From an uncultured Clostridia bacterium (GTDB lineage Bacteria; Bacillota; Clostridia; Oscillospirales; Oscillospiraceae): 11,972 nucleotides of DNA. Made by a program: the position numbers and the translations under genes. Location of the stretch: the NCBI GenBank assembly GCA_945927915.1, contig CAMEMX010000030.1, positions 1 through 11,972 on the forward strand, written 5' to 3'. Of the stretch, positions 1-11,972 are shown in pieces. Under the pieces are notes generated by a model that did not search any database, was not told the origin of the DNA, and saw only the letters and a program-made list of their open reading frames with translations. Position 1 is the stretch's first letter, and each line of letters begins with the position of its first letter.

Positions 1-474
1 GGGCACTGTCTGCTCGTGCGTTTCGTCTCCGGAGGATACCACCGTTTCCACCGGGGCGTTGCGGGGTATGCCGAACAGATCGCACAGATACCAGCCGATC
101 GTCGTGCCGAACAGCGTGCTGAAGGTTCTGGAAAGCCAATGCTCCCCGCTCTTATCGTTCCAGCCCTTGAACGTTTTGTCCGCTTCCTGCAATGCCTCGG
201 GGCAATCGGTAAGGCGCTTTTGCAGGGAGGCCAGATTTGCCGCGACTGCTTCCAGCTCGCAGGCGATGCTCTCTGCCTCCTCCGCAGCGTTTGACAGGAA
301 CCGGACGCCGTAGCTGTTGCGCACATTGTGCTGCATCGTCGATGCAATATCATACAGTGAGGTCGCGGCAAAGAGAGAATCGGACGAGCGCGTCACGGTT
401 TCGAGCAGCGAGACCGCCTTTTTGATATTCTTTGTGCTTATTTCGTCGTCCTGCAGGAAAATCTTATCCGCCAT
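1..474 (-). CDS. Candidate T7SS substrate, N-terminal part (cut by left edge)
   Basis: I do not recognise this family. The frame is open for 158 codons from the ATG at 474-472 to the window edge, so only the N-terminus is visible. It begins MADKIFLQDDEIS. Residues of about 10-105 look mostly alpha-helical, with heptad-like leucine, alanine and glutamate spacing, as in the helical N-terminal domains of WXG100 and LXG-type substrates. A tryptophan-containing stretch follows (GWNDKSGEHW, about residues 104-113), then a hydrophobic segment with GTTIGWYLCDLFGIP (about 123-137), then a polar stretch. A GGAGGA ribosome site lies 6 nt before the ATG, and only 12 nt separate this gene from the WXG100 stop codon. 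Position directly after the WXG100 gene suggests a T7SS effector, or a partner co-secreted with the WXG100 protein; this is inference. It could instead be a structural accessory protein. No toxin domain is visible because the C-terminus is missing. Confidence 0.72.
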   Translation of the reverse strand, partial: MADKIFLQDDEISTKNIKKAVSLLETVTRSSDSLFAATSLYDIASTMQHNVRNSYGVRFLSNAAEEAESIACELEAVAANLASLQKRLTDCPEALQEADKTFKGWNDKSGEHWLSRTFSTLFGTTIGWYLCDLFGIPRNAPVETVVSSGDETHEQTVP

Positions 475-486: not shown

Positions 487-774
487 TCAGGGTTTTGTTT
501 CTTCGGCGGGCCAGGCGGCAGCGGCAGAGGCTGCCTGGCTCTGCACCTGCGCGATCAGCACCTCGATCCTGCCGATCGCGGTCCGGATCCTTGCTTTCTG
601 CGCCGCCAGCGCCTCGACCATGGCATCGGCGGCCTGTCCCTGCCACGCCGCCTCCACGGCGCTGATCTGCGCGGTCAAATCGTTCACGGCCTCCTGACAC
701 TTTGCCTTTACGTCGCTGAGCTCGCTGACGACGCCCGCTGCGCCGTTTTGCATATCCTGCAAGGTATCTGCCAT
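487..774 (-). CDS. WXG100 family protein (EsxA-like T7SS substrate)
   Basis: A 95-residue protein, the usual size for WXG100 (ESAT-6-like) proteins, which are small helical hairpins secreted as dimers by type VII systems through EssC/EccC. The defining W-x-G turn is visible as W44-Q45-G46 (AAWQGQAAD), near the middle and flanked by two long alanine- and glutamine-rich helices (about residues 5-40 and 47-82). There is no signal peptide or membrane segment. The tail is short (AAAAWPAEETKP), and I do not see a clear C-terminal Y-x3-D/E export signal, so the signal may be supplied by a partner, possibly the protein encoded just downstream. A GGAGGA site (782-787) sits 7 nt before the ATG. The gap to the upstream YukD-like stop is 15 nt. 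The family assignment is firm; the secretion role comes from family knowledge and the neighbouring essC. Confidence 0.92.
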   Translation of the reverse strand: MADTLQDMQNGAAGVVSELSDVKAKCQEAVNDLTAQISAVEAAWQGQAADAMVEALAAQKARIRTAIGRIEVLIAQVQSQAASAAAAWPAEETKP

Positions 775-789
775 CGTTCGTTCCTCCGA

Positions 790-1065
790 TCATCCGCGCT
801 CCCGGAAGGAGCCTTTTTTCTCTGTGACGGTCAGAAAATCCCCGTCGCAGATCCCGTAGTCAAGCAGGCAGGCCGCCTCATCCGGCAGGTACTGCCCGTT
901 ATGTACGAGCCACAGCCCGTGCATATGGCTGAACCGGGCGGGCTCCATGGCCTGCAGCGCGCTCAGCAGCCGCCCGGAAAGCAGCCCGACAGGCATCCGG
1001 CACGGCAGCTCCATATCCGCCGCGCGTCCGCCGAACTGCACCGTGACGATGATGCTATGCTTCAT
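790..1065 (-). CDS. yukD: YukD/EsaB ubiquitin-like T7SS accessory protein
   Basis: A 91-residue cytosolic protein of the YukD/EsaB family, which has a ubiquitin fold and is a conserved accessory component of Firmicutes type VII systems. Visible family features are the first beta strand SIIVTVQF, the D-x-E-L-P motif (D17-M-E-L-P21) followed by M-P-V, the LWLVHNGQYL strand pair, and the C-terminal D74-G75-D76 before FLTV. The start was set at the ATG at 1065, because GGAGG (1074-1078) lies 8 nt upstream. A possible GTG three codons earlier would overlap that ribosome site. The start overlaps the last 11 nt of the upstream EspG-like gene, which implies translational coupling. A basic tail (KKGSFRERG) follows the core fold. 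The molecular role of the family is still poorly defined; in characterised systems its loss reduces secretion. Confidence 0.88.
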   Translation of the reverse strand: MKHSIIVTVQFGGRAADMELPCRMPVGLLSGRLLSALQAMEPARFSHMHGLWLVHNGQYLPDEAACLLDYGICDGDFLTVTEKKGSFRERG

Positions 1066-1855
1066 CCGCCGCACCTCCTCCGGAGAAAAAGCCGTCCAGC
1101 AGCGCGAAGAGCCTCTCCTTCAGCCGCTGCTCCGGGATGTCCGCAAACGCTGCGGCGCTGCGATAGTCCTCCATTGCCGGCTCGATCAGCAGATACCCCT
1201 CCCCGTCCACGGAAAACATACAATGCCCGCAGACCGGCGGCTGCACGGTTTGGTCAACGGTGATGACGGAAAAGACGGAGGTGTTTTCCAAAAGCGCGTT
1301 GGCGATGATCCGCGAGGCGTCCTCATCCGCGCCCTGCCGGCGCAGCAGGAGGGCTGCGCCGTCGAAATCGTTGCTTTTTGCGCAGCGCTTAGCCTTTTTC
1401 AGCGCTGTCTGCGTGAGTTTCGTCGTCTTTTCCGGGCGGCTCTTCCCGCTCCACGGAATACTGTGCAGCAGACGTTTTTCCACCTCGCCGCGCCGCAGCA
1501 CCGACAGGCGGTAGGTTTTGTTCCGCACGTCGGCAAGCAGAAAGCGGTCGCCCCGTTTCCATACGATCAGCCTGGACATCCCGGCCTCACGCGAGCGCGA
1601 GACGACAGACAGATACCTGCTGCACTCCGTGCAGAAGAGGACGGCCTGCCGCACCTCCCCGTCGAGCGTTGTGTTTCCGTCGAAATCCATGGACAGCAGG
1701 CGCTTTTCCCAGAGTCCGTCTTTCGTTTTTTGGATCGCCGCGCTGCGCTGCGCGGGCGGCAGCCCCGCAAACTCGTCTGCGATCGCATACAGCTTTGCTT
1801 TTTTGCACAGGGCCGCTGCGACGAGCAGCTCCCCTGCGCTGAGCGTTATCGACAT
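1055..1855 (-). CDS. EspG-like T7SS accessory protein (tentative)
   Basis: A 266-residue protein with no signal peptide or membrane segment, so probably cytosolic. The opening resembles EspG-type and related Firmicutes T7SS proteins: TLSAGELLVAAAL, a helical region ending near residue 50 in KDGLWEKRLLS, then DFDGNTTLDGEVRQAVLFC. This matches the EspG pattern of a leucine-rich first helix followed by a small winged-helix-like unit with 'L...G.L..D..G.L' spacing. A beta-rich part follows (about 94-122, with RLIVWKRGDRFLLADV), then helices (about 145-190), another strand region, and a final helix (about 240-257). In mycobacteria EspG binds PE/PPE substrates as a chaperone; a similar role here is inference. 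Two CxxC pairs are present, C75-C78 and C209-C212, and may bind metal. The gene starts 6 nt after the essC stop and its last 11 nt overlap yukD. The position is secure; the family call is moderate. Confidence 0.62.
   Translation of the reverse strand: MSITLSAGELLVAAALCKKAKLYAIADEFAGLPPAQRSAAIQKTKDGLWEKRLLSMDFDGNTTLDGEVRQAVLFCTECSRYLSVVSRSREAGMSRLIVWKRGDRFLLADVRNKTYRLSVLRRGEVEKRLLHSIPWSGKSRPEKTTKLTQTALKKAKRCAKSNDFDGAALLLRRQGADEDASRIIANALLENTSVFSVITVDQTVQPPVCGHCMFSVDGEGYLLIEPAMEDYRSAAAFADIPEQRLKERLFALLDGFFSGGGAADEA
1074..1078 (-). promoter_or_regulatory. Ribosome binding site deciding the yukD start
   Basis: GGAGG on the minus strand, 8 nt before the ATG at 1065 and inside the 3' end of the upstream gene. 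It overlaps the alternative GTG at 1074-1072, which argues against the longer reading frame. Confidence 0.7.
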
Positions 1856-1861
1856 CCGAAC

Positions 1862-1869
1862 TCACCTCC
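1862..1869 (-). promoter_or_regulatory. Ribosome binding site containing the essC stop codon
   Basis: GGAGGTGA on the minus strand. Its last three bases are the TGA stop of essC, and the ATG of the next gene follows 6 nt later at 1855. Ribosomes finishing essC therefore sit on the site used to start the EspG-like gene, which points to coupled translation. Confidence 0.75.
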
Positions 1870-4800
1870 GTGCGGATCGATCCAGCATGAACTGAACGCG
1901 CCGGGCGGTCTGTCCCTGCACGACATAGCCCTCGCGCTCGTTTACGACGGCGCTTTTTTCGCTGTAGCTCAGTCTGACCTGCGCGATGCCGTGGTCGTTC
2001 AGGCAGCCGCCGAGCAAAAGAAGCTGCCGGTCGGTCGAGGCGGCGGTGACAAAGGGCTCGCCCTTCGCGCGGAAGACGGAAAGCGCCGTCGCATCGCCCG
2101 CGGCAAGCAGATAGACCCGCAGGCCGTCACAGAGCTTGGAGATCGCTTCCAGCCGGCTGACCGTCTTGTCGTTTACCTGCGAATAAAACGCGGAAAAATC
2201 GTCGATCAGCACGATGATCGGCGCGAAGCCCTCTCTTTCTTCGACCGGCTGCTCGCTGCGCCCGCGCAGGACGGGCATCAGGCGGTCAAAAAAGGCGTGG
2301 ATCTCTTCGGCGGTCGTCGCATGATCCGCCGCCTCTGCCCGCAGGTCCGCCGGCGCCGACGCAGCGACGTCGAGCAGATGCAGCGTACCGCCCAGCTTCT
2401 GCTTCATCTGCCTGCCCAGCATATAGAGCGTCCGGCTCTTGCCGCTGTGCGGCGTGCCGGAAATGATGAGATAATACTGCTTTTGATGATCGAAGCAGAC
2501 CGGCTCGATGGTGGCGGTGTCAAGCCCGCAGACGATGCCGCTGCTTTCGATGCTGCCGTAGGGGATCTCCTGCGGCATCTGCGGGATCTTCCTTGCGCAT
2601 ACGCCGCGCCAGCGCTCCGCCAGATGCTCCGCCTGCAGGCGGATGTTGCGGTCGATCTCGGCATCCGTCTCGCCCGCGGCGGGCAGCGCGGCCTGAAACA
2701 GCAGGGCGGGCGAGTGCTTTGCCAGACCCCGGCCCGGAATGTCCTCCGGCGTTATGCCGTTCGTCTTTCCGACGATCCCGCTGTAGTCGGCGCGATCCGC
2801 CATTTGCAGGGCATATGCCATCTTGATATTGGGCTGCATTTTGTAAGGGATGCCGGTCGCGCCGGTCGTCGTCGCAGCCAGATAGACGCCGTAGTTCGCG
2901 CCCGACTGCGTCAGCGCGAGCAGGAAGGCATCCAGCGCCGGGTGCGCCGCCGGCGCGGCGTTGATCTGATCCACCACGAGCAGAATATAGGGCAGGCTCT
3001 GCGCACACTCCTGCCGATACGCCCGGATGCTGCCGACCCCCGCCGCGGAAAAGAGCTTCTTCCTGCGCTCGATCTCGTCGAGCAGCATGCTTGCCAGCCG
3101 CCCGATCCGCTCAGCATCGCCGAGCTCCACGATGCCGCCCACATGAGGCAGCCCCGCAAAGCAGCGCATATTCATGCCGCCGAGATCCATGAGGTAGAGA
3201 TTGACGTCCTGCGGGGCGTATTGCAACGCCGCAGACATCACCAGCGTCTTGAGCAGCGTGGTCTTGCCCGTGACCGGCGCGCCGTAGATCGCAATGTGCC
3301 CCTGCTCGGAAAAGCGCATGGCAAGCGGATACTGCGCCTGGCGCTTCGGGTCGTCCACCTTGCCGACGATCACGGAGAATTCCTTCGTGGGGAAAGCGCT
3401 TCCCGCCTCACGCAGAAGCGCGTCCACCGCGATCCTGGCAGGCAGAGGCTCCGACCAGACACGCGCGGCGGCAGGGATGTGGTGCTTCCTTGCGTATTGC
3501 GCAATATAAGCCACCGCCGCGTCGATCTCCGTTGTCCCGTTCCGGTCCTTCTGCCCTGCGGCGGCATCGGAGAAATACCTGCGGTTTCCCGCAAGATCGA
3601 CCGTGGCGAGCTTGACGCGGTCGGCGGAATAGTCCTTTCCGGCAGCATAGGGCGCGCCGCTCCAGAAGCTCTGCACCTGCACCAGAAAGTCCGAGCTGTT
3701 GTTGTTGACGCGGACATATGCCCTGCCGGGGCGGGTGATCTGCGCGGCGTCCGGGATGCCGAGCAGCTCCTTGCTGGCGGAGGCAGAGGCGACCTTGAGG
3801 CACCATTTGAAATGGGAATTCTCCTTGATCGCCTGGCTCGCCTCGTTGCCGGGCTGCTGCGTCGCAAGGATGAACCAGATCCCCTCGGATCTGCCCTTGG
3901 CGAAGCTGCTTTCCACCCATTTCATAAACTCCGGGAAGGTCTTTTTGAACTCCGCGAACTCATCAATGATGACGAACAGGATGGGCAGTCGCTCTTTGAT
4001 CTTCCCGCTGTTGCATTTTTTCAGATACGCCTGAATGTTGGAAACGCCGTATTGATCGAACAGCTTTTCCCTGCGGGTCAGCTCGTATTCCAGCGCCTCC
4101 TTGTTGCGCCGGATGTCTCTGTCGATGTTGGAGATCGTGCCGGCGAGATGCGGCAGGTCGACAAACGGTGTGATCAGCCCGGTTCCCTTGAAGTCGATGA
4201 GGATGAACGAAATGTCCTGCGGCGAGAAATGCATCGCCATGGAGAGGATCCAGCTTTGCAGCATTTCGGATTTGCCGGAGCCGGGCATTCCGCCCACCAG
4301 ACCGTGAACACCGTGTTTTCCGTCCAGTATATCGAACGAGAACACCTTGCCGGACTCGTCGACGCCGACCGGCACGGCAAGGGAGGTGTCCGTCCGCGCG
4401 CTGCTCCATGCGGCGCCGAGGTCATAGTCCTCGATGCGCTTGAGCCGATAGCCCTCAAAAAAGCTGACGGCGTTGGGGATCGTGTGCTTTTCCGCGCTCT
4501 CGGAGAGCCGGAGCGGCGCCAGCGCTCTGGCAAAGCCGTCGCAGGCGGCGTGGTCGAACCGATCGCGCCGGAATGTCTGCCGCCGGTCGGCATCGTCGCG
4601 CGGGTAGAAAACGCCCCCGGAGGCGGCGACCTCCACGACCGCGCTGCACTCCTTCGGCAGCTGCGCGACAGACCGGCAAAGAAAGATCACCCGGATGCCC
4701 GGATCCGACGGGGCGGAAAGCTGCTCGTAGATCTGATTCCCCGCAAGAAGCTCGGGCGCCGCGACGATCAGAAGATACCGCGGTCTGCCGCCCGCTGCGC

Positions 4801-5995
4801 CATAGCCCGTGTGCGGCGCGTTCTTTGCGCGCGCGTGCAGCACGGAGAGCAGCTTCTCCCGCAGGATGCTCGCCTGCGCCTGCGTTGCCGCCAGATAGCG
4901 CAGGTCGTCCTCGTCGCTGTGCGTGTGCGGGAGCCAGCGCACCCAGTCCCAGCCGTCCCGGTCCGCCTCGGAGAAAATGACGCAGAGCTTCAGATCCTCG
5001 TACGAATGCAGCGCCGCAAGCTGCACCGCGACCTCCTGCGCCAGTTGATTTGCGGCATCCTTCGGCCCGACAAAGCCGACCAGCCTGTCCTCCGGGCCGA
5101 TCAGCACGGGAGCGTCCGCGATCCGCTTTCCTTCCGCGCCGAGGCACTCAGCCTGCTCCTCCAACGGGTCGTCGGTCATGGAAAGGACATCCCTCGTCCA
5201 CACCGCCGTGACCGCCGCGGGGACATCGCCCGTGCCGATGCGGAACGCGCCGAAGTCCGGGTCGTCAAAGCGTCGCTCCCACAGGCTCCGGCTGCGCTTT
5301 GCCGCGATGCGGACGCACTCCTGCGCGGAAGGATTCTCCTGCAGAAGAACGCTCCGCTGCTCATCGGCCGCCGCGGCGACCTGCTCCCGTATGCTCTGCA
5401 GGTAAGCGGTGTAGACCTCTTCCCGCTTTGCGCTCAGGCGTGTATGCTTCTTTTTTTGCTGCAGGTAGCTGACGACGGATACGACGACCGAGATCACCTG
5501 CATCGGGATCATAAAGAACAGGTAGGTGGAGACGCCGCCGGAGAGGACGGAGACGACGACCAGAACGGCTGCCATCAGCACGGGCGGGAGCAGGATTGTC
5601 AGCCAGTTGAATTCCGGCGTTCCGTTCGCCGCCGGCGGACGCCGGATCGTGATCGTCTCGCGGCGGAGCGTCGTCTGGAAGCGCGGCGAGCGGTTGAAGC
5701 GGTTGGCAGCGCCGCCGTCAAGCGCCCTGGCGTGCGGCGGCAGTCCCGCGGGTGGCTCCGCCGCCCATATGTCCCCTGCCGCGTCGGCGTTCGCTGCCGC
5801 TGTGCCGTCCAGATCGGCGGGCGCGTGCCACAATGTGTCCGAAGGCGGGTCTTCTTTTCGGGGCGCGGTCTTTCTGACGGTCCCGACAAGAGAGCCTGTC
5901 AGCTTTCCTCCGGCGGCGCCTTTTTTCACGGGCGCGCAGTCCGGGCAGAGGCCGCTGCCCTCGCGGAGTTCTTTTCCGCATCTGTTACAGTACAT
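1862..5995 (-). CDS. essC: EssC/YukBA-type T7SS ATPase with N-terminal zinc ribbon
   Basis: The membrane-anchored motor of type VII secretion, 1377 residues, with three tandem FtsK/SpoIIIE ATPase domains. A zinc ribbon (C3, C6, C17, C20) and a roughly 100-residue low-complexity linker precede two membrane segments (about 131-152 and 158-178). Staphylococcal and Bacillus EssC normally carry FHA domains here, and I see none. A basic helical region and a middle domain lead to domain 1 (Walker A GMPGSGKS, K575; Walker B VIID678-E679; ATQQPG sensor-like motif), domain 2 (GAPVTGKT, K911; Walker B LLVVD1009-Q1010) and domain 3 (GTPHSGKS, K1186; Walker B IVLID1265-D1266). All three Walker lysines are intact. 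The usual second acidic residue is glutamine in domain 2 and aspartate in domain 3, so domain 1 is the best candidate for the main hydrolytic site. By family knowledge the C-terminal domain binds WXG100 export signals. A GGAG (6004-6007) sits 8 nt before the ATG. Confidence 0.95.
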   Translation of the reverse strand: MYCNRCGKELREGSGLCPDCAPVKKGAAGGKLTGSLVGTVRKTAPRKEDPPSDTLWHAPADLDGTAAANADAAGDIWAAEPPAGLPPHARALDGGAANRFNRSPRFQTTLRRETITIRRPPAANGTPEFNWLTILLPPVLMAAVLVVVSVLSGGVSTYLFFMIPMQVISVVVSVVSYLQQKKKHTRLSAKREEVYTAYLQSIREQVAAAADEQRSVLLQENPSAQECVRIAAKRSRSLWERRFDDPDFGAFRIGTGDVPAAVTAVWTRDVLSMTDDPLEEQAECLGAEGKRIADAPVLIGPEDRLVGFVGPKDAANQLAQEVAVQLAALHSYEDLKLCVIFSEADRDGWDWVRWLPHTHSDEDDLRYLAATQAQASILREKLLSVLHARAKNAPHTGYGAAGGRPRYLLIVAAPELLAGNQIYEQLSAPSDPGIRVIFLCRSVAQLPKECSAVVEVAASGGVFYPRDDADRRQTFRRDRFDHAACDGFARALAPLRLSESAEKHTIPNAVSFFEGYRLKRIEDYDLGAAWSSARTDTSLAVPVGVDESGKVFSFDILDGKHGVHGLVGGMPGSGKSEMLQSWILSMAMHFSPQDISFILIDFKGTGLITPFVDLPHLAGTISNIDRDIRRNKEALEYELTRREKLFDQYGVSNIQAYLKKCNSGKIKERLPILFVIIDEFAEFKKTFPEFMKWVESSFAKGRSEGIWFILATQQPGNEASQAIKENSHFKWCLKVASASASKELLGIPDAAQITRPGRAYVRVNNNSSDFLVQVQSFWSGAPYAAGKDYSADRVKLATVDLAGNRRYFSDAAAGQKDRNGTTEIDAAVAYIAQYARKHHIPAAARVWSEPLPARIAVDALLREAGSAFPTKEFSVIVGKVDDPKRQAQYPLAMRFSEQGHIAIYGAPVTGKTTLLKTLVMSAALQYAPQDVNLYLMDLGGMNMRCFAGLPHVGGIVELGDAERIGRLASMLLDEIERRKKLFSAAGVGSIRAYRQECAQSLPYILLVVDQINAAPAAHPALDAFLLALTQSGANYGVYLAATTTGATGIPYKMQPNIKMAYALQMADRADYSGIVGKTNGITPEDIPGRGLAKHSPALLFQAALPAAGETDAEIDRNIRLQAEHLAERWRGVCARKIPQMPQEIPYGSIESSGIVCGLDTATIEPVCFDHQKQYYLIISGTPHSGKSRTLYMLGRQMKQKLGGTLHLLDVAASAPADLRAEAADHATTAEEIHAFFDRLMPVLRGRSEQPVEEREGFAPIIVLIDDFSAFYSQVNDKTVSRLEAISKLCDGLRVYLLAAGDATALSVFRAKGEPFVTAASTDRQLLLLGGCLNDHGIAQVRLSYSEKSAVVNEREGYVVQGQTARRVQFMLDRSARR

Positions 5996-6028
5996 ACGAT
6001 CTGCTCCATGTTTCGGGCCGGCAACGCA

Positions 6029-7327
6029 TCAGTCTTCCGCGATCCTGAGCCAGTAGTCAAGCTGCTCCATGTCGATCTCCGTGCTGCCGATGTCGCTGAA
6101 ATCCAGCGTGATGCGCAGGGAATCGTTGCGCTCCTGCGTGATGATGACGGCAGAGGTCAAATAGTTTCCCTCCGTTGTAAATTCCAGATATGCGGATGTA
6201 TTTTCCCGCCGCTGCAAGTATGCAACGCTGTCCTTTATGTCATAATAGTCGTCGATCGACCGGAACGCCGGCTTCACCGTCTCCAGCGCCGCGTACAGGA
6301 ATTGCGGCAGGACGTCGTAATCCAGGTCGAAGCAGAACGTCGTGCTGCCGCCGCGCTCTGAGCAGTAATAGCCGGCGTTTTCCGTCAGCCATTTTTCGTC
6401 GTTCAGCTCCTCCAGAAGGGTGCCGAAGCACTCGCGCAGCGCCTCCGTGTCAATAGATTCCTCGATCCTGCGGAGCGTCCGTCCGCTCGGATCGAGACGA
6501 TCGAGCGCCTCCAGAGGATCCGGCTCGGACAGATCGACGCTGTTATAGACGTCGAAGAACATCTCCACCTCGTCGCTGATGTCCTCCTTATAGACATAGT
6601 CGCTGTTTTTATAAATAATGTATCCCTGATAAATGGCATAGGTGTGTCTGCCGTCGCTGATCACGGCGGTCAGCTCTCTGTCTGCGGGAGAAAACACGAC
6701 CTCGGCAGTGTATTTATCCTCCAGGCTGCCGTCCTCGTAAAGCGATACGCGGACGGAGAAGGACTTGCCGGTCAGCGTGTTTTCCAGCGAGGAGAGGATC
6801 TGTCCGAAGGGGCCGTTCGCGCGCACAAGCGCAACGATCCCGAAGATGCCGAAGACCAGCACGCAGACCGTTGCCAAAGCGATGCAGGAGATCAGCAGCT
6901 TCTTTTTCTTTGCGGAGCGGGGGCGCTTCGGCGTGGACTTCCGCGCAGCCGGCTCGGTCGCGCCGCCGCAGACGGCGCAGAAGCGGTCGCCCGGACGCAG
7001 CTCCGCACCGCAGTGCGGGCATCGTCCGGCTTTCGGCGCGAAGGGCTTCGCATCCGCCGCAGCAGACGTGCCTGCGCCCGTCACCGCCGCACCGGCGGAC
7101 GAAAGAGAGCTTGCAACGCGGACCCCGGATGATGCGCCTGTGTCCGCGCCGGCTGCCGGGGAAGCACCGGATGTCCGCTTCGGCGCGGCGCCGCCCAGAT
7201 CTCCGGGGGCGGAGAAGAAGCCCGCCGCGGAAGGGGCGGCGCTGTCCGGCGCCTCGACCTTTGCGCCGCAGTCCCCGCAAAACGTACTCCCCTCCGCAAG
7301 GATATTTCCACACTGTTTACAGACCAT
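6029..7327 (-). CDS. Double zinc-ribbon, single-pass membrane protein with ectodomain
   Basis: A 432-residue protein not recognised as a named family. It has two zinc ribbons (C3, C6, C17, C20 and C103, C106, C117, C120) joined by an alanine/glycine/serine-rich linker. The linker carries GFFSAPGDLGG (36-46) and VRVASSL (69-75). A very basic stretch (KRPRSAKKKK, about 134-143) precedes one membrane segment (about 144-168), predicting a cytosolic N-terminus. The remaining 260 residues are predicted extracytoplasmic. They start with beta-rich sequence (SFSVRVSLYEDG, YTAEVVFSPADRELTAVISDG, YAIYQGYIIYKN) that loosely recalls LolA/LppX-like lipoprotein folds, continue with acidic helices, and end in strands (SAYLEFTTEGN, LRITLDFSDIG). 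The ATG at 7327 follows GGAGGAAATATC. It lies 33 nt upstream of essC, whose protein has the same zinc ribbon and linker motif, so a role at the secretion machine is likely but inferred. Confidence 0.88.
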   Translation of the reverse strand: MVCKQCGNILAEGSTFCGDCGAKVEAPDSAAPSAAGFFSAPGDLGGAAPKRTSGASPAAGADTGASSGVRVASSLSSAGAAVTGAGTSAAADAKPFAPKAGRCPHCGAELRPGDRFCAVCGGATEPAARKSTPKRPRSAKKKKLLISCIALATVCVLVFGIFGIVALVRANGPFGQILSSLENTLTGKSFSVRVSLYEDGSLEDKYTAEVVFSPADRELTAVISDGRHTYAIYQGYIIYKNSDYVYKEDISDEVEMFFDVYNSVDLSEPDPLEALDRLDPSGRTLRRIEESIDTEALRECFGTLLEELNDEKWLTENAGYYCSERGGSTTFCFDLDYDVLPQFLYAALETVKPAFRSIDDYYDIKDSVAYLQRRENTSAYLEFTTEGNYLTSAVIITQERNDSLRITLDFSDIGSTEIDMEQLDYWLRIAED

Positions 7328-7383
7328 GATATTTCCTCCGTTTATTTTGTAGCATATCTTCTATTGGTTTTTTCTCTTCTTGC

Positions 7384-8655
7384 TTAGTTATATAGTTTAT
7401 ACGGTCCGCCATACACATGAAGCGCGTCCCAATATACGCCGCTCCAAGGATACACCTTGATGTAACCAAGCGATGATTCGCTGCCGTCCTCATGGCGAAT
7501 GTCTCCCAAATCGATCAGCAGGTAATAGGTCTCGCCATTCCACTCATTATCTCCGTAGACCTTCTTGCTCCCGTTTGTGCTGTATGTAATCTGTTCCCGG
7601 CTTGACCAGTAGTGTGCACAGTAGTTGATTTCATACTCAACGACATAGGCGTTGCCGTCTCTTTCTATGAAATTGATCCAGATGCTTGTTTCTCCATCGT
7701 CATACTGCCAAACTCCGAGTTTTGTAAACTGATGATCTACTTGCCAGATTTCACATGCATCATAAGCGCCGGAAAGTCTAAACTCGTCATCAACATTGCT
7801 ATAAGTTATTTTCGCACGGTAATTCTCACTACCGTATTCCCACGGGACAGCAATGTCAAACCAGTAAATTGCATTCACGGAATCTATAGTGGGATATTCA
7901 TATGTCACTGTGTCAAATGTAACCGTGCCATTTTCCAAACACTCGTGCTGTTTATTTTCGCGCAAGTCTTCTTCTGCTTTTTCTACCGTGATCACATTGA
8001 GGGGCGCCCGGCTAACAGCGTCTGGATACGCCGTATCTATTTTGGGTGCTTCCGTTTCAAGATTTGTGTCTAATTTCCCACGATCCCAATTACTGCTATT
8101 GACACGGGCTGCGGGCAAGAGTATTGCAAGACTAACGAGCAGCAGCAAGCAGGCAGCGATACTGATTCCCGCGATCAGATACTTTCTCTTGTTCGAGGCG
8201 TTCTTCTTTTTTTCAGCAGAATAACCGGCTGCGGTATTTACCGCTTTGCCGCAGACTGCGCAGAATTTGCTGTCTTCCTTTGTTTCTGCACCGCAATTGG
8301 TGCAGTGTTTCTTCGGCCCGGAAGTCACGCACCCCGTAAGTCCGCTGCCACCGGATTCTTTCGAAGTTCCGGGCAGACCCATTGCACCCGGTTCATTCGC
8401 TCCGGGCTCATCGGCGGAACAGCCGGACATAAGTGATCTTGAAATGCGCAGAGCCGCCGTGCCGCTTGCTTTTTTCGTTTCCGGTGATACGGCAGATATC
8501 TCGTGTGTGCCAGCGGAACCGTCAAGATTTCCCGCAACGGTGAAAAACCCGCCGGCGGACGGAGTGGAAGGTGCGGCAGGGGCAGCTTTTTCTCCGCAAC
8601 AGGCGCAGAACGAGCTGTCTTCTGCAATAAAGCTTCCGCATTTTCTGCAAATCAT
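7384..8655 (-). CDS. Double zinc-ribbon, single-pass membrane protein, AT-rich ectodomain
   Basis: A 423-residue protein of the same design as its downstream neighbour, with zinc ribbons at C3, C6, C17, C20 and C118, C121, C132, C135. The linker carries GGFFTVAGNLDG (35-46) and LRISRSL (69-75) at the same residue numbers as in the neighbour. A basic segment (about 149-158) is followed by one membrane segment (about 159-181). The ectodomain (about 185-423) is unlike that of the neighbour. It is aromatic- and acid-rich with many short strands (YWFDIAVPWEYG, EIWQVDHQFTKLGVWQYDDG, IWINFIERDG, YYLLIDLGDI) and ends GGPYKLYN. I do not recognise its fold. By hand count, 7681-7980, which encodes ectodomain, is about 41% GC, well below the flanking genes, which suggests a separately acquired domain. 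A GGGGGAG site lies close before the ATG at 8655. Real protein almost certain; function unknown. Confidence 0.87.
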   Translation of the reverse strand: MICRKCGSFIAEDSSFCACCGEKAAPAAPSTPSAGGFFTVAGNLDGSAGTHEISAVSPETKKASGTAALRISRSLMSGCSADEPGANEPGAMGLPGTSKESGGSGLTGCVTSGPKKHCTNCGAETKEDSKFCAVCGKAVNTAAGYSAEKKKNASNKRKYLIAGISIAACLLLLVSLAILLPAARVNSSNWDRGKLDTNLETEAPKIDTAYPDAVSRAPLNVITVEKAEEDLRENKQHECLENGTVTFDTVTYEYPTIDSVNAIYWFDIAVPWEYGSENYRAKITYSNVDDEFRLSGAYDACEIWQVDHQFTKLGVWQYDDGETSIWINFIERDGNAYVVEYEINYCAHYWSSREQITYSTNGSKKVYGDNEWNGETYYLLIDLGDIRHEDGSESSLGYIKVYPWSGVYWDALHVYGGPYKLYN

Positions 8656-8753
8656 TTCTCTCCCCCTTTATTTTCTTGCAATTTACGCTTTTGACATACC
8701 AGGATGATCATTCCGGCATAATGCCTCCATATTATCTCTCTCGCGCGGGCAGA
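8656..8753 (-). other. Intergenic gap without a clear signal
   Basis: A 98-bp gap between two zinc-ribbon genes. Apart from the ribosome site next to the ATG at 8655, I see only a TAATAT-like element and a very short GGCA-TTA-TGCC palindrome, too weak for a terminator. No convincing promoter pair is present, so read-through from the upstream gene is the simpler view. Confidence 0.4.
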
Positions 8754-10262
8754 TCACGTTTCTTTCCCGGTCAGCAGATCATAGGTGACGCTGGTATACG
8801 GCTCCCATCCCTGCGTAATGCAGATCGTTCCCTCGTCGATCCTTGCAAACTCGTTCGTCATTTCAAACGCAGCGATCGGCGTTTGCCCGGAGGAATCCAC
8901 ACGATATTCCTGCATCACATAGGGCTTATTGCTGCTCCAGGCGTCGAAATCCACCGCAAGATAATACACCGCGCCATTGCAGATCGCTGCGTCCCAGGCA
9001 TCGGCCATTGAAACGAGCATACGGTCATGCGCGTCTATCACGGTAACGCTTTTCGGGCTGACATCCGAGCGGAAGCCCTCCAGCAGGATCATGCCGTCCC
9101 GGAATTCCGCCTCCCAGCCGCCGCCGAGATCCTGAAAATCATCCCCTTCGATCGTATAGGAGAACACCTGGATGCCCCACCATTCTTCCGGCTCGTCATA
9201 GATGAAATACAGACGCTCCTGCGTGACGGCAAACAGCGCAGTATAATCCATCACATAGCCGAACGGCGTACAAACCTCACCCGAAGCGGCATCTACGCGG
9301 AGGAGCTGCCCGTCACGAAGAACCTGGTAGTAGATCCGTCCGTCTGTAAAGCAGTCACCCTGGCGCACATAATAATCCGCAGTGTCTGCGATCCGTTCTT
9401 CGGAAACAACATAAGTATTGCTTAGAACAGACATATCCGGCGCTTCGGAATAACAGGGCTCTTTGAAAAAGCGCAGGTATTCTTCCTCCCCGGTGAGCTC
9501 GCGTTCCAGCGTACAGGTGCTGATGACGCTGTTTTGCTGCAAAGTCAATTCATTGACCTTTTCATGCCCCATATCTCCGAAATGCAATATCAGCTTGCCT
9601 TTCTGAATATACAGGCCGCTGTGTCCGGCAGAGATGCTGCCCAGAGGAAGCAGGCTTGCGTTACGGTAGGAATAGAACTCATACAGCGCATCCGCTTCAC
9701 AGGTCGCCGTCCGGAGGATCAGCTCGCTGATGTTGTCACCGTCCATGTCGAACATATAGATGCGCGTTACATTTGATGTCCGGACGATTTGTTCAGCGTA
9801 GGCAAGCACGGCCGATACATCACCCCTGATTCGTATCTGCCCTTCCTTTAATTGCTGCGACGATTTCTCCGTTGCAGGCGCTTCCGGCGCTTCGTCCGCA
9901 GAATAAGCGGCAGACGCCTCATGCCCTGCCTCGGAGGAGCCCGGTCTTGCCAGCAGGAAAGCGCCCGTGATCAGCGCAAGACACGCAGCCGCGGCTGCGA
10001 TGCTTATCATCAAAATACGGGTCCTTTTTTTGCCGGACTTGATTGGCTCCGTTTTCAACCTGCTTCCGCAGGCCGTGCAGAACGCGCCGCCCGCGTTATT
10101 GGCTGCTCCGCAATGCGGGCAGTATCTTTCTGCCTGCGGCGCGGGCTTTTGCGTGCCGCCGGGATTTTGGCTGTTGTTTGCGAAGCGCTCGATTTTTGCC
10201 CCGCAATGCCGGCAAAACGCACTCGCATTCTCAATTGGCTTTCCGCATTTTTGACAAACCAT
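8754..10262 (-). CDS. Double zinc-ribbon membrane protein with FG-GAP-like and propeller-like ectodomain
   Basis: A 502-residue protein. Two closely spaced zinc ribbons (C3, C6, C17, C20 and C48, C51, C62, C65) and a basic segment (KSGKKRTR, about 75-82) precede one membrane segment (about 83-105), so the C-terminal 395 residues are predicted outside. After an alanine/glutamate-rich spacer, FDMDGDNISELIL (about 171-183) resembles a calcium-binding FG-GAP/VCBS-type loop with D172, D174, D176 and E180. From about residue 285, repeated strand pairs such as GRIYYQVLRDGQLLRVD, ERLYFIYDE and GAVYYLAVD resemble beta-propeller blades of DUF5050-like proteins. It lacks the GFF-DL linker motif of the two genes downstream. 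It ends in LLTGKET. A GGAGGGG site (10266-10272) precedes the ATG at 10262. Its second zinc ribbon and early membrane segment are identical in DNA to the next gene upstream. The substrate or ligand is unknown; surface sensing or protein binding is speculation. Confidence 0.88.
   Translation of the reverse strand: MVCQKCGKPIENASAFCRHCGAKIERFANNSQNPGGTQKPAPQAERYCPHCGAANNAGGAFCTACGSRLKTEPIKSGKKRTRILMISIAAAAACLALITGAFLLARPGSSEAGHEASAAYSADEAPEAPATEKSSQQLKEGQIRIRGDVSAVLAYAEQIVRTSNVTRIYMFDMDGDNISELILRTATCEADALYEFYSYRNASLLPLGSISAGHSGLYIQKGKLILHFGDMGHEKVNELTLQQNSVISTCTLERELTGEEEYLRFFKEPCYSEAPDMSVLSNTYVVSEERIADTADYYVRQGDCFTDGRIYYQVLRDGQLLRVDAASGEVCTPFGYVMDYTALFAVTQERLYFIYDEPEEWWGIQVFSYTIEGDDFQDLGGGWEAEFRDGMILLEGFRSDVSPKSVTVIDAHDRMLVSMADAWDAAICNGAVYYLAVDFDAWSSNKPYVMQEYRVDSSGQTPIAAFEMTNEFARIDEGTICITQGWEPYTSVTYDLLTGKET
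9982..10159. repeat. Exact direct repeat, copy 1 (at least 178 bp)
   Basis: Identical base for base to 11795-11972, at an offset of 1813 bp. It covers the linker end, the whole second zinc ribbon, the basic segment and the first part of the membrane helix of the 8754-10262 gene. Similarity falls to 25 of 35 positions over the next stretch (9947-9981 against 11760-11794) and then disappears. The far limit of the repeat is unknown because copy 2 reaches the window edge. Confidence 0.97.
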
Positions 10263-10286
10263 TTTCCCCTCCAGGTATTTGAAGCT

Positions 10287-10316
10287 ATTTTAAGGAAGCT
10301 CTGAATCAATCCGCAA
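10287..10316 (-). promoter_or_regulatory. Possible sigma-A-type promoter
   Basis: On the minus strand TTGCGG (10311-10316) and TAAAAT (10287-10292) are separated by 18 nt, upstream of the GGAGGGG site and ATG of the 8754-10262 gene. The -35 match is poor and part of it lies in one arm of the palindrome. It could give this and the downstream genes their own transcription start, but chance occurrence is quite possible. Confidence 0.22.
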
Positions 10317-10398
10317 GAGCGGTCAGCGAGAGATTTTGTCGCAAACCGAGAAGCTGCGGCAAAGGATCCGCCGAGCGCTGAAGCCGATTTGTTCAGAG
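10299..10398. repeat. 100-bp imperfect palindrome, MITE-like or hairpin element
   Basis: The outer 16-bp arms, CTCTGAATCAATCCGC at 10299-10314 and the complement of 10383-10398, agree at 13 of 16 positions. Weaker pairing continues inward to about 30 positions. The element fills most of the 145-bp gap between two zinc-ribbon genes and holds no gene. It could be a miniature inverted-repeat element, a remnant of an insertion sequence, or an RNA hairpin that tunes expression between genes. No clear target-site duplication was seen, and there is no T-run typical of an intrinsic terminator on the minus strand. Confidence 0.5.
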
Positions 10399-10407
10399 GA
10401 TAATGAT

Positions 10408-11972
10408 CTACTCGTCGCGCCAGGTCAGGTAGTAGGTTTGACCGCCCATGTACCAGTACATTTCGTTTCCGCTGCGTTCAAATGTGCAAACCGAGGTCTT
10501 TCCGTCAATGTTCAGAAACGCCGTGTCGTCGATCACAGAATAGGTATATTCATATTTCACATCGCCGAATATGCTGATATTGCCTGTGCCGTCCGGCTCA
10601 AAGGTGAAAACGCCGACCGGGCCGTACAGCTCGTGGTTATAGGTCCAATGCCCGATGATTGCGTTTTCGTCCGGCTCTTCAATGAAGAATATGTCCGACG
10701 GCTGCATCGGATACAATGCGATGGTATCCTCGTCATATCCGTTCTGCGGGAAGGAATAGATGGTGTAGAAGCTCGCCTTCCGCTCCGCGATGCGAGCTTT
10801 ATACCGGTCAAACGCAGCGGTGATTGCTTCGTCCGTGCTGTAATCAAGGCTTGTGACGCTGACGGACGCAACATCGCATATCCCGCCGCTCCGGGTAAGA
10901 TAATACTCGTGATAGACAAGCGTTCCGTGCCCGGTGCTCCAATGTCCGTCCTCACTCGCCAGGAGGAAGCCCGTCGGGGATTGCTGAATATACCAGTTAA
11001 AGAACCCTCCTGCGTTGCACGAGGAGCCGACCTTGGTGAAGATCAGCTCGACCTGCCGGTTTTCGTCAATGGTATAGACAAGACCTTCGACCCTTGCATT
11101 CATTTCGTCACAGAAGTGCACGACGATCATCTCGTCAAGCCCGTCGTGGGTCACATCCGCCAGACACACCAGGTCGGTGTAGGAATAATTCTCACAGAAG
11201 AACGTCTCATATATGGAATGCGCCTCCTCCGGCGTGATCTGCCGCACGACCGAGGACAGCTCGCGCTCGACCCAGTCCTCCCGCGACAAATCGCGCTCAA
11301 GCGTTCTCCCCGCGAACGGGGACTGCTCGTCCTCCGTCCCGGTCACCGTCAGGAAGTCTCCGTCGACGCGCACCGTGATCATCGCATTGTACGGGTCGTG
11401 CGGTTCCTCCTCCGAATCGCCCAGACCGAGGTAGCCGCCGGAGAGCTGCAGCGTGATCCGCGCCGTGTCTTCGGACAGGACGGTCGCGCTCCAGGTGCCG
11501 GTATAGGAGTAATAGATATCGCTGCTTGTCACATAATGCAGGAGCGTCGCCTCCATCGTGCGCTCCAGATGCAGCTCCGTCACGTCCGCGCCGACGATAT
11601 AGCCCGCGTTCGGGTACGCCGTTCCGCCGGAGTAGGAATACCAGCTTCCATAGAGAAAGTCGGGCGATTGCGATACTGCCTCCGCTGTGGGCGCCGTCGG
11701 TTCGCTGCGCTCCGCGTCTGCGGCGGGCGCGCCCGGCTCTGCTTCCGGCTTTCCCGCGTTTGCCAGCAGGAAAATACCCGCGGTCAGCAGGAAGCACGCA
11801 GCCGCGGCTGCGATGCTTATCATCAAAATACGGGTCCTTTTTTTGCCGGACTTGATTGGCTCCGTTTTCAACCTGCTTCCGCAGGCCGTGCAGAACGCGC
11901 CGCCCGCGTTATTGGCTGCTCCGCAATGCGGGCAGTATCTTTCTGCCTGCGGCGCGGGCTTTTGCGTGCCGC
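10408..11972 (-). CDS. Zinc-ribbon membrane protein with FG-GAP-like and lipocalin-like ectodomain (N-terminus cut by right edge)
   Basis: The frame is open from the stop at 10408 to the right edge, giving about 520 visible residues. The true start lies outside. The paralogue at 8754-10262 suggests that only a first zinc ribbon of some 35-40 residues is missing. Visible parts in order are a zinc ribbon (CPHCG...CTACG, coded near 11884-11943), KSGKKRTR, and a membrane segment, both zinc ribbon and early helix identical in DNA to the paralogue. Next comes an alanine/glutamate/proline spacer, then LYGSWYSYSG and GTWSATVLSED, which resemble lipocalin-like or DUF5640-like repeats. A calcium-loop-like DVTHDGLDEMIVV follows (coded near 11120-11158). 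The protein ends in another 'GHWTYN...GVFTFEPDGTGN' unit and the tail YYLTWRDE. Predicted orientation is cytosolic N-terminus and external C-terminus. Function is unknown. The TTG at 11871 is not a credible start, as it lies inside the conserved module. Confidence 0.87.
   Translation of the reverse strand, partial: GTQKPAPQAERYCPHCGAANNAGGAFCTACGSRLKTEPIKSGKKRTRILMISIAAAAACFLLTAGIFLLANAGKPEAEPGAPAADAERSEPTAPTAEAVSQSPDFLYGSWYSYSGGTAYPNAGYIVGADVTELHLERTMEATLLHYVTSSDIYYSYTGTWSATVLSEDTARITLQLSGGYLGLGDSEEEPHDPYNAMITVRVDGDFLTVTGTEDEQSPFAGRTLERDLSREDWVERELSSVVRQITPEEAHSIYETFFCENYSYTDLVCLADVTHDGLDEMIVVHFCDEMNARVEGLVYTIDENRQVELIFTKVGSSCNAGGFFNWYIQQSPTGFLLASEDGHWSTGHGTLVYHEYYLTRSGGICDVASVSVTSLDYSTDEAITAAFDRYKARIAERKASFYTIYSFPQNGYDEDTIALYPMQPSDIFFIEEPDENAIIGHWTYNHELYGPVGVFTFEPDGTGNISIFGDVKYEYTYSVIDDTAFLNIDGKTSVCTFERSGNEMYWYMGGQTYYLTWRDE
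11795..11972. repeat. Exact direct repeat, copy 2 (truncated by right edge)
   Basis: Identical at all 178 positions to 9982-10159, including third codon positions, so the match reflects recent duplication or gene conversion and not protein-level constraint. It encodes the second zinc ribbon, the basic segment and the beginning of the membrane helix of the right-edge gene. The repeat may extend beyond the window. Confidence 0.97.

Follow-up and report, generated by a model that had tools for sequence, protein, structure and literature searches.

A zinc ribbon in the place of FHA domains on the EssC motor of a type VII secretion locus from an uncultured Clostridia bacterium

We analyzed an 11,972-nucleotide stretch of DNA (the window) from an uncultured Clostridia bacterium of the Oscillospiraceae (assembly GCA_945927915.1, contig CAMEMX010000030.1). 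The window is a type VII secretion locus with the gene order essC, EspG-like candidate, yukD and WXG100, and its EssC-type motor carries a zinc ribbon at the N-terminus, where FHA domains are usual. It makes up the entire contig C30; the genome, 85% complete, is fragmented into 209 contigs totalling 1.47 Mb. The genes of the locus are all encoded on the minus strand, with gaps of 145, 98, 56, 33, 6, -20, 15 and 12 bases, and because of this spacing most of the locus looks like one operon.

The EssC motor and the neighbouring ribbon proteins

The essC gene (1862..5995, minus strand) encodes a motor of 1377 aa, which scores 975.4 bits against TIGR03928 (cut-off 778.4) in an alignment beginning at residue 98 and matches YukB of PDB entry 9qks from residue 99 (E 1.7e-107). 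The zinc ribbon of EssC (5936..5992, minus strand) has the pattern C-x2-C-x10-C-x2-C. A preliminary description of the window had placed it where FHA domains would stand, and this was confirmed: FHA is absent from the 25 best Pfam families of EssC, and a genome-wide FHA search gave no match in the window contig.

Four genes for ribbon-membrane proteins, also on the minus strand, precede essC. The nearest (6029..7327) stops 33 bases ahead of it and encodes a protein with ribbons at residues 3 and 103, a membrane segment near 141 and the linker GFFSAPGDL, of which P0077-P0080 are full-length homologues. The protein encoded at 7384..8655 has ribbons at 3 and 118, a membrane segment near 157 and the linker GFFTVAGNL. 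Ribbons at 3 and 48 and a membrane segment near 80 were found in the product of 8754..10262, whose ectodomain has no convincing Pfam family. The outermost gene (10408..11970) has lost its N-terminus at the contig end; one ribbon and one membrane segment are visible, and the ectodomain has a DUF5640 match in Pfam under the cut-off. These readings agree with the earlier count of at least eight ribbons over five consecutive genes: eight are present (one, two, two, two and one), every one of them C-x2-C-x10-C-x2-C and starting at residue 3 in all four complete genes, and with single-pass topology of the four neighbours, in each of which a simple hydropathy scan found one hydrophobic segment. Zn_Ribbon_1 (PF13240) is above its cut-off in three of the five proteins (6029, 7384 and 8754) and below it in the other two, the contig-end protein with 23.7 bits and EssC with 14.4 against the required 25. 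The shared x10 spacing was rejected as evidence of a family, since it is usual for this type of ribbon: of 13 pattern hits on further contigs fetched from the genome, 12 have it, and a common spacing therefore does not define a family.

That the ectodomains differ also proved correct, as ribbon and membrane segment form a cassette joined to varying ectodomains. One copy of a cassette repeat, comprising the second ribbon and the membrane segment, lies at 9907..10159 (minus strand), and a second copy at 11720..11972 (minus strand), reaching the contig end, is 89% identical to it over 253 bases. Another such repeat, of 205 bases at 99%, is on contig C54 of the same genome. Cassettes are identical at 68/77 and 68/72 residues, and ectodomains at 49/176 over a part, or at 17/58. 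Genome-wide, ribbon matches with E no higher than 1 number 26, seven in the window contig and five in C54.

On contig C54 (L030), a ribbon-membrane gene is accompanied by genes for a vWA protein, a PP2C-like protein and a kinase and by three further ribbon genes, of which one has BspA-type leucine-rich repeats and one DUF898; all four ribbon genes carry membrane segments. The PP2C-like match is under the cut-off, and the kinase has no membrane segment by hydropathy and no ribbon in its Pfam list. The vWA, PP2C-like and kinase genes stand in a row (L030 2491-5230), resembling a TerY-P triad. Ribbon genes are found at the end of C54 and at the beginning of C30; the two contigs may thus belong together, and C54 may hold a missing part of the type VII secretion system (T7SS) island.

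Outside this genome, the EssC homologue P0002 (90%) and the ribbon-membrane homologue P0078 (82%) both have a longest contig of 16019 bases and are thus very probably on one contig, so that P0002 very probably has the same ribbon-membrane neighbour beside EssC as the window. No further EssC and ribbon-membrane pair was matched in this way by a wider profile search.

The gene following essC (1055..1855, minus strand) encodes a protein of 266 aa, an EspG-like candidate with a weak match to the EspG family PF14011 (E 0.0053, under the cut-off); of four aligned members, one matches this family. It has no PDB match by sequence at E under 0.1, and no EspG structure was found. In G743, G108 and a Lachnospiraceae metagenome-assembled genome (MAG), its profile relatives occupy the same place after essC and before yukD; counterparts by place and length only were seen in G805, G863 and G986, none of the three with a Pfam match. 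A YukD/EsaB ubiquitin-like protein is encoded at 790..1074 (minus strand; PF08817, 38.9 bits, cut-off 27), and a WXG100-type protein at 487..774 (minus strand), which is slightly under the PF06013 cut-off (25.1 of 27.3 bits, E 2.2e-5) and fits WXG100 in position and length. The product of 1..474 (minus strand), incomplete at the contig end and without a convincing Pfam family, is a candidate substrate only by its position after the WXG100 gene; long genes occupy the corresponding place in G743.

Conservation, origins and rarity of the EssC ribbon

A search of 5.8 billion proteins, in which the 8000 candidates sharing most words were scored, yielded 76 EssC homologues. P0001-P0012 are 49-99% identical to the window EssC and cover 99-100% of the query, and the ribbon is present in 11 of these 12 with all four cysteines kept. 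The alignment has no invariant or nearly invariant positions before residue 86 other than the initial methionine, the four cysteines, a single glycine and a single proline, and the linker after the ribbon varies in length and sequence across the clade. The EssC ribbon is thus real and conserved within its clade. The next homologues, P0013-P0019, cover 92-94% of the query, and six of the seven have FHA in a precomputed Pfam list; in the seventh, P0016, a ribbon is present whose spacer measures nine residues. A further homologue, P0020 (1356 aa, no called FHA), seemingly starts inside an FHA-like stretch, and its start is probably wrongly called.

A first tree, over 1264 columns with the N-terminus excluded, comprised 57 EssC proteins: that of the window, P0002-P0023 and a further 34 taken from those genome loci whose essC gene was picked out by script, some loci being omitted. 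P0016 groups with the FHA-bearing P0014 and P0015 (support 0.996) and then with P0017 and P0018 (1.0), apart from the window clade, whose sister is the FHA-bearing P0013 (support 1.0), available as a protein only. In a second tree, with 27 rows, three label changes are required, the third of which is the lack of a ribbon in P0010, and a single clade of all ribbon proteins plus P0010 was rejected at a cost of 564 log units (p-AU 2.15e-5). By these sequence trees, ribbon EssC arose separately twice, and FHA is probably the older state because the outgroups carry it.

Ribbon EssC is rare among the genomes searched. EssC matches were obtained in 22 of 295 genomes of the order, 3 of 17 of the genus, 32 of 400 of the family, 29 of 394 in a second draw from the order and 20 of 391 of the class, these draws overlapping. 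Among the matches listed for the genus, family, second order and class draws, only the window's own starts before query residue 79. An N-terminal ribbon was seen in none of the 34 genome EssC loci, where some EssC genes end at a contig edge (e.g. G333, G228 and G546) and are not judgeable. The scan of named genomes gave three loci with EssC at 29-32% identity, two of them in MAGs from goat reticulum. Four distant EssC matches were found on viral contigs, and no place on plasmids covered 80% of EssC.

Ribbon genes near FHA-type EssC

Clustering of ribbon genes with essC was evaluated from the best 150 of 198 ribbon matches in 20 EssC genomes, the 48 weaker ones not being included. In the 19 FHA-type genomes, where 0.84 ribbon open reading frames (ORFs) would be expected at a distance of up to 10 kb from EssC, 11 were found, an enrichment of about 13-fold (p 2e-9); nine genomes have such an ORF against 0.82 expected, and within 15 kb there are 16 ORFs against 1.18. 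In the window genome, 4 of the 14 ribbon ORFs listed are in the 12-kb contig against 0.075 expected (p 8e-7), EssC's own ribbon being under the limit of that list. Chance clustering, which the preliminary description had named as a concern, is excluded by these two results. In this order, ribbon proteins are thus associated with T7SS irrespective of what stands at the N-terminus of EssC. Ten of the 11 ORFs, all but the second of G156, were read: in only four (G082, G104, G122 and G743) is a ribbon at the N-terminus clearly followed by a membrane segment, which speaks against a general rule, five have internal or C-terminal ribbons, and one (G292) is cut at the contig end.

Several other ribbon proteins were seen at these loci. 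Two kinase-like genes near an FHA-EssC (L070 16130-19000) start with a ribbon pattern of the same spacing; kinases of T7SS islands may thus be capped by ribbons as well. In G013 and G035, which belong to two different families, the gene immediately upstream of EssC encodes a 376-aa protein bearing three ribbons at its C-terminus (L075 12604-13734 and L076 6104-7234). TVLL-type threonine repeats stand behind the ribbon in four proteins of families f23 and f26 at FHA-type loci (L066 16245-18437, L068 1386-3380, L069 17544-19694 and L073 1-248; 7, 3, 7 and 2 repeats). No such repeats were found in six counted ribbon proteins of the window genome or in seven others from EssC loci elsewhere. The repeat linkers are suggestive as candidate FHA ligands for kinase-driven docking.

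Among the nearest FHA-bearing relatives, the loci of G743, G805, G863 and G986 share the order FHA-EssC, 252-269-aa protein, YukD-like, WXG100-like and then long substrate-like genes, and continue with more WXG100-like, PP2C and kinase genes, the small genes having been named by eye. PP2C was recognized by Pfam in all four, and kinase genes are also found beside EssC: two or three consecutive ones in G805, G863 and G986, and in G743 one upstream and one downstream that is seemingly split. Three class-level genomes (L187, L188, L189, L199, L200 and L201) share one T7SS arrangement of FHA-EssC, a 252-269-aa protein in the EspG position, YukD-like, WXG100-like, substrate-like, PP2C and tandem kinase genes, which may be an undescribed or T7SSi-like subtype. 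The Arg, Ser, His and Asn of the phosphothreonine site are kept, as judged by eye, in 7 of 12 FHA-type relatives (P0013, P0017, P0019, G743, G805, G863 and G108). A single FHA match was obtained in the window genome; according to the Pfam labels it lies in an FtsW protein encoded next to a penicillin-binding protein on contig C103. Kinase matches number three, on C4, C54 and C75.

Possible role of the ribbon and relation to known systems

Deletion of FHA2 in Staphylococcus aureus EssC abolishes the recruitment of EssB and EssA, as stated in the relevant passages of PMC9436818. The passages on FHA domains in PMC11217815 suggest that these domains differ because the partners bound differ, and report FHA-less ATPases in T7SSc, g and h. 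The EssC N-terminus may accordingly be viewed as the site that recruits membrane partners. In the lineage of the window, recruitment would proceed by the ribbon and no longer by phosphothreonine reading; membrane proteins with matching cytosolic ribbons would gather round the EssC ring, directly or via one shared partner, and would bring their different ectodomains to the mouth of the channel. The motor would thereby adjoin an array of surface proteins that are anchored by ribbons and whose N-terminal cassettes recombine. The neighbours are natural partner candidates because their ribbons are of the EssC kind and, by hydropathy topology, face the same side of the membrane, and because their genes come next in the operon. 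We tentatively propose that, at the cytosolic face of EssC, the role of docking passed from FHA to the zinc ribbon, which would recruit ribbon-membrane proteins; our confidence in this reading is slightly less than balanced. These data do not distinguish direct contact between ribbons from a shared adaptor or from a switch responding to metal or redox state.

Two of the neighbours have a GFFxxxGDL-like linker motif in common with part of the EssC linkers. The motif is convincing in P0005 (p 0.005), marginal in P0011 (0.035), P0012 (0.05), the window (0.06) and P0004 (0.08), and absent in the other eight EssC N-termini. In controls with two draws of five from 19 other ribbon proteins, none of 26 tests reached p <=0.05. 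The shared motif hints at a common module of EssC and its neighbours.

A number of observations weigh against docking by the ribbon. The motif reaches p <=0.05 in only 3 of 13 EssC N-termini, in a test where related linkers are non-independent, and has p 0.71 in P0016, the one protein on which the second ribbon origin rests. P0010 is a clade member without a ribbon, which may reflect a loss or a wrong start. The only readable ribbon-EssC neighbourhood is the window, the second (P0002) being reached via the 16019-base match. The phosphothreonine site that the ribbon would replace deviates in 5 of the 12 FHA-type relatives, with Lys for Arg in P0014 and P0015, Gly for Ser in P0018 and G986, and a degenerate FHA, by eye, in the Lachnospiraceae MAG. 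G743 combines FHA-EssC with five ribbon-membrane genes on one contig, and in the Lachnospiraceae MAG L086 a ribbon-membrane gene lies 27 bases upstream of FHA-EssC, with a second ribbon gene, carrying choline-binding repeats, behind the WXG100 genes. Since ribbon proteins stand beside FHA-type EssC, the array is independent of a ribbon in EssC. Twelve class-level EssC loci of 16-20 kb showed no ribbon ORF; further out in G986, one kinase has the ribbon pattern at residue 634. Co-occurrence of ribbon-membrane genes with zinc-ribbon essC, as first suggested, was thus upheld in so far as clustering near essC is non-random, and not in its exclusiveness, as ribbon genes also lie beside FHA-type EssC. 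Relatives with FHA-EssC in the same context, which the preliminary description had named as counting against its reading, do occur in part, as shown by G743, L086 and the enrichment. A strict pairing of ribbon-membrane genes with ribbon-EssC was rejected on the basis of G743 and L086.

These observations can also be accommodated if the ribbons are a generic cytosolic cap, that of EssC serving folding or stability after FHA loss without any docking, and the neighbours are ordinary ribbon-membrane surface proteins of signalling or surface islands with T7SS. Ribbon matches in all 20 genomes searched (1 to 18 each), ribbon proteins near FHA-type EssC, the usual spacing and 10 of 13 EssC N-termini without the neighbour-shared motif at p 0.05 favour such a cap; the roughly 13-fold enrichment near EssC and the two origins of ribbon EssC weigh against it. 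Moreover, the FHA-less EssC of G783, G962, G1026 and G1075 start near the membrane region, uncapped (with the start chosen by the analyst), and a cap is therefore not needed. We consider a generic cap possible, though doubtful. Instead, the ribbons might gate the motor, either as a switch that responds to zinc or redox state or by binding a single soluble regulator, for example through the vWA, phosphatase or kinase genes of C54. The vWA, PP2C-like and kinase genes lie among four ribbon genes on C54, and TerY-P triads are hypothesised in the corresponding part of PMC11090510 to be a metal-sensing phosphorylation switch; however, no physical link between C54 and the window was seen and gating leaves the diversity of the ectodomains unexplained, so that we regard a switch as improbable. 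Tandem membrane immunity genes occur at T7SS loci, and the four neighbours could be immunity proteins against toxins of their own or rival systems with incidental ribbons. Candidate immunity genes are noted at T7SS loci of several subtypes in the parts of PMC11217815 dealing with them. The neighbours, however, lie upstream of essC and not behind the candidate substrate gene, and such arrays can have surface-like ectodomains (the BspA-type leucine-rich repeats on C54 and the choline-binding repeats in L086), which leaves immunity as very improbable. Docking by the ribbon could be extended to a phosphorylation-independent coupling code, in which EssC twice exchanged FHA for an array-type ribbon, ribbon-cassette proteins are pluggable into the motor, and a modular array of surface adaptors grows by cassette recombination; taken as a whole this extension seems to us rather unlikely.

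No description of a ribbon EssC was found in the open-access literature, subscription papers and preprints being mostly outside it. The words zinc and ribbon are absent from the main text of PMC11217815, and the portions of PMC11090510, PMC10611510 and PMC1779556 that were covered describe no ribbon EssC. Ribbon EssC is thus a variant, without earlier description in the open-access literature searched, of a secretion system that is itself known. TcaA-like ribbon-membrane proteins resemble the neighbours in having an N-terminal ribbon and a membrane segment, with weak NCBIfam matches (E 0.0041 to 0.094), but the window matches are far under the 550-bit family cut-off and cover the ribbon and membrane part only. 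The row of vWA, PP2C-like and kinase genes on C54 is like the TerY-P triad in the account of PMC11090510, but the C54 kinase has no ribbon and the ribbons are on separate membrane proteins.

With T7SSc, as outlined in PMC11217815, the window shares an FHA-less EssC, an EspG-like candidate, YukD and a WXG100-type candidate, and its genome has vWA, phosphatase-like and kinase genes on a separate contig, C54. The T7SSc ATPase clusters with EccC in that outline, whereas the window motor scores 975 bits as EssC and 419 as EccC, a comparison by model scores, as the trees contained no T7SSc sequence; and T7SSc has a membrane kinase, whereas the C54 kinase has no membrane segment. The subtypes T7SSh and T7SSi of the same source likewise combine the ATPase with EspG-like, YukD and WXG100 components, T7SSh without FHA, but no ribbon is described for them in the text covered, and neither a Tad pilus nor the kinase-like TshM is among the nine proteins of the short window contig. 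The T7SSb EssC of S. aureus and its Bacillus subtilis counterpart YukB are the same motor with the same order of ATPase domains; EssB of T7SSb (PF10140) had no match in the 85%-complete genome, and the window EssC has one zinc ribbon and a linker instead of FHA domains. In S. aureus at least, the choice of membrane partners for the T7SS channel lies with the EssC N-terminus. A repeated natural swap of FHA for a ribbon would separate the docking site from the phosphopeptide reader, and would make the recruitment of partners by T7SS variants directly testable with small soluble domains.

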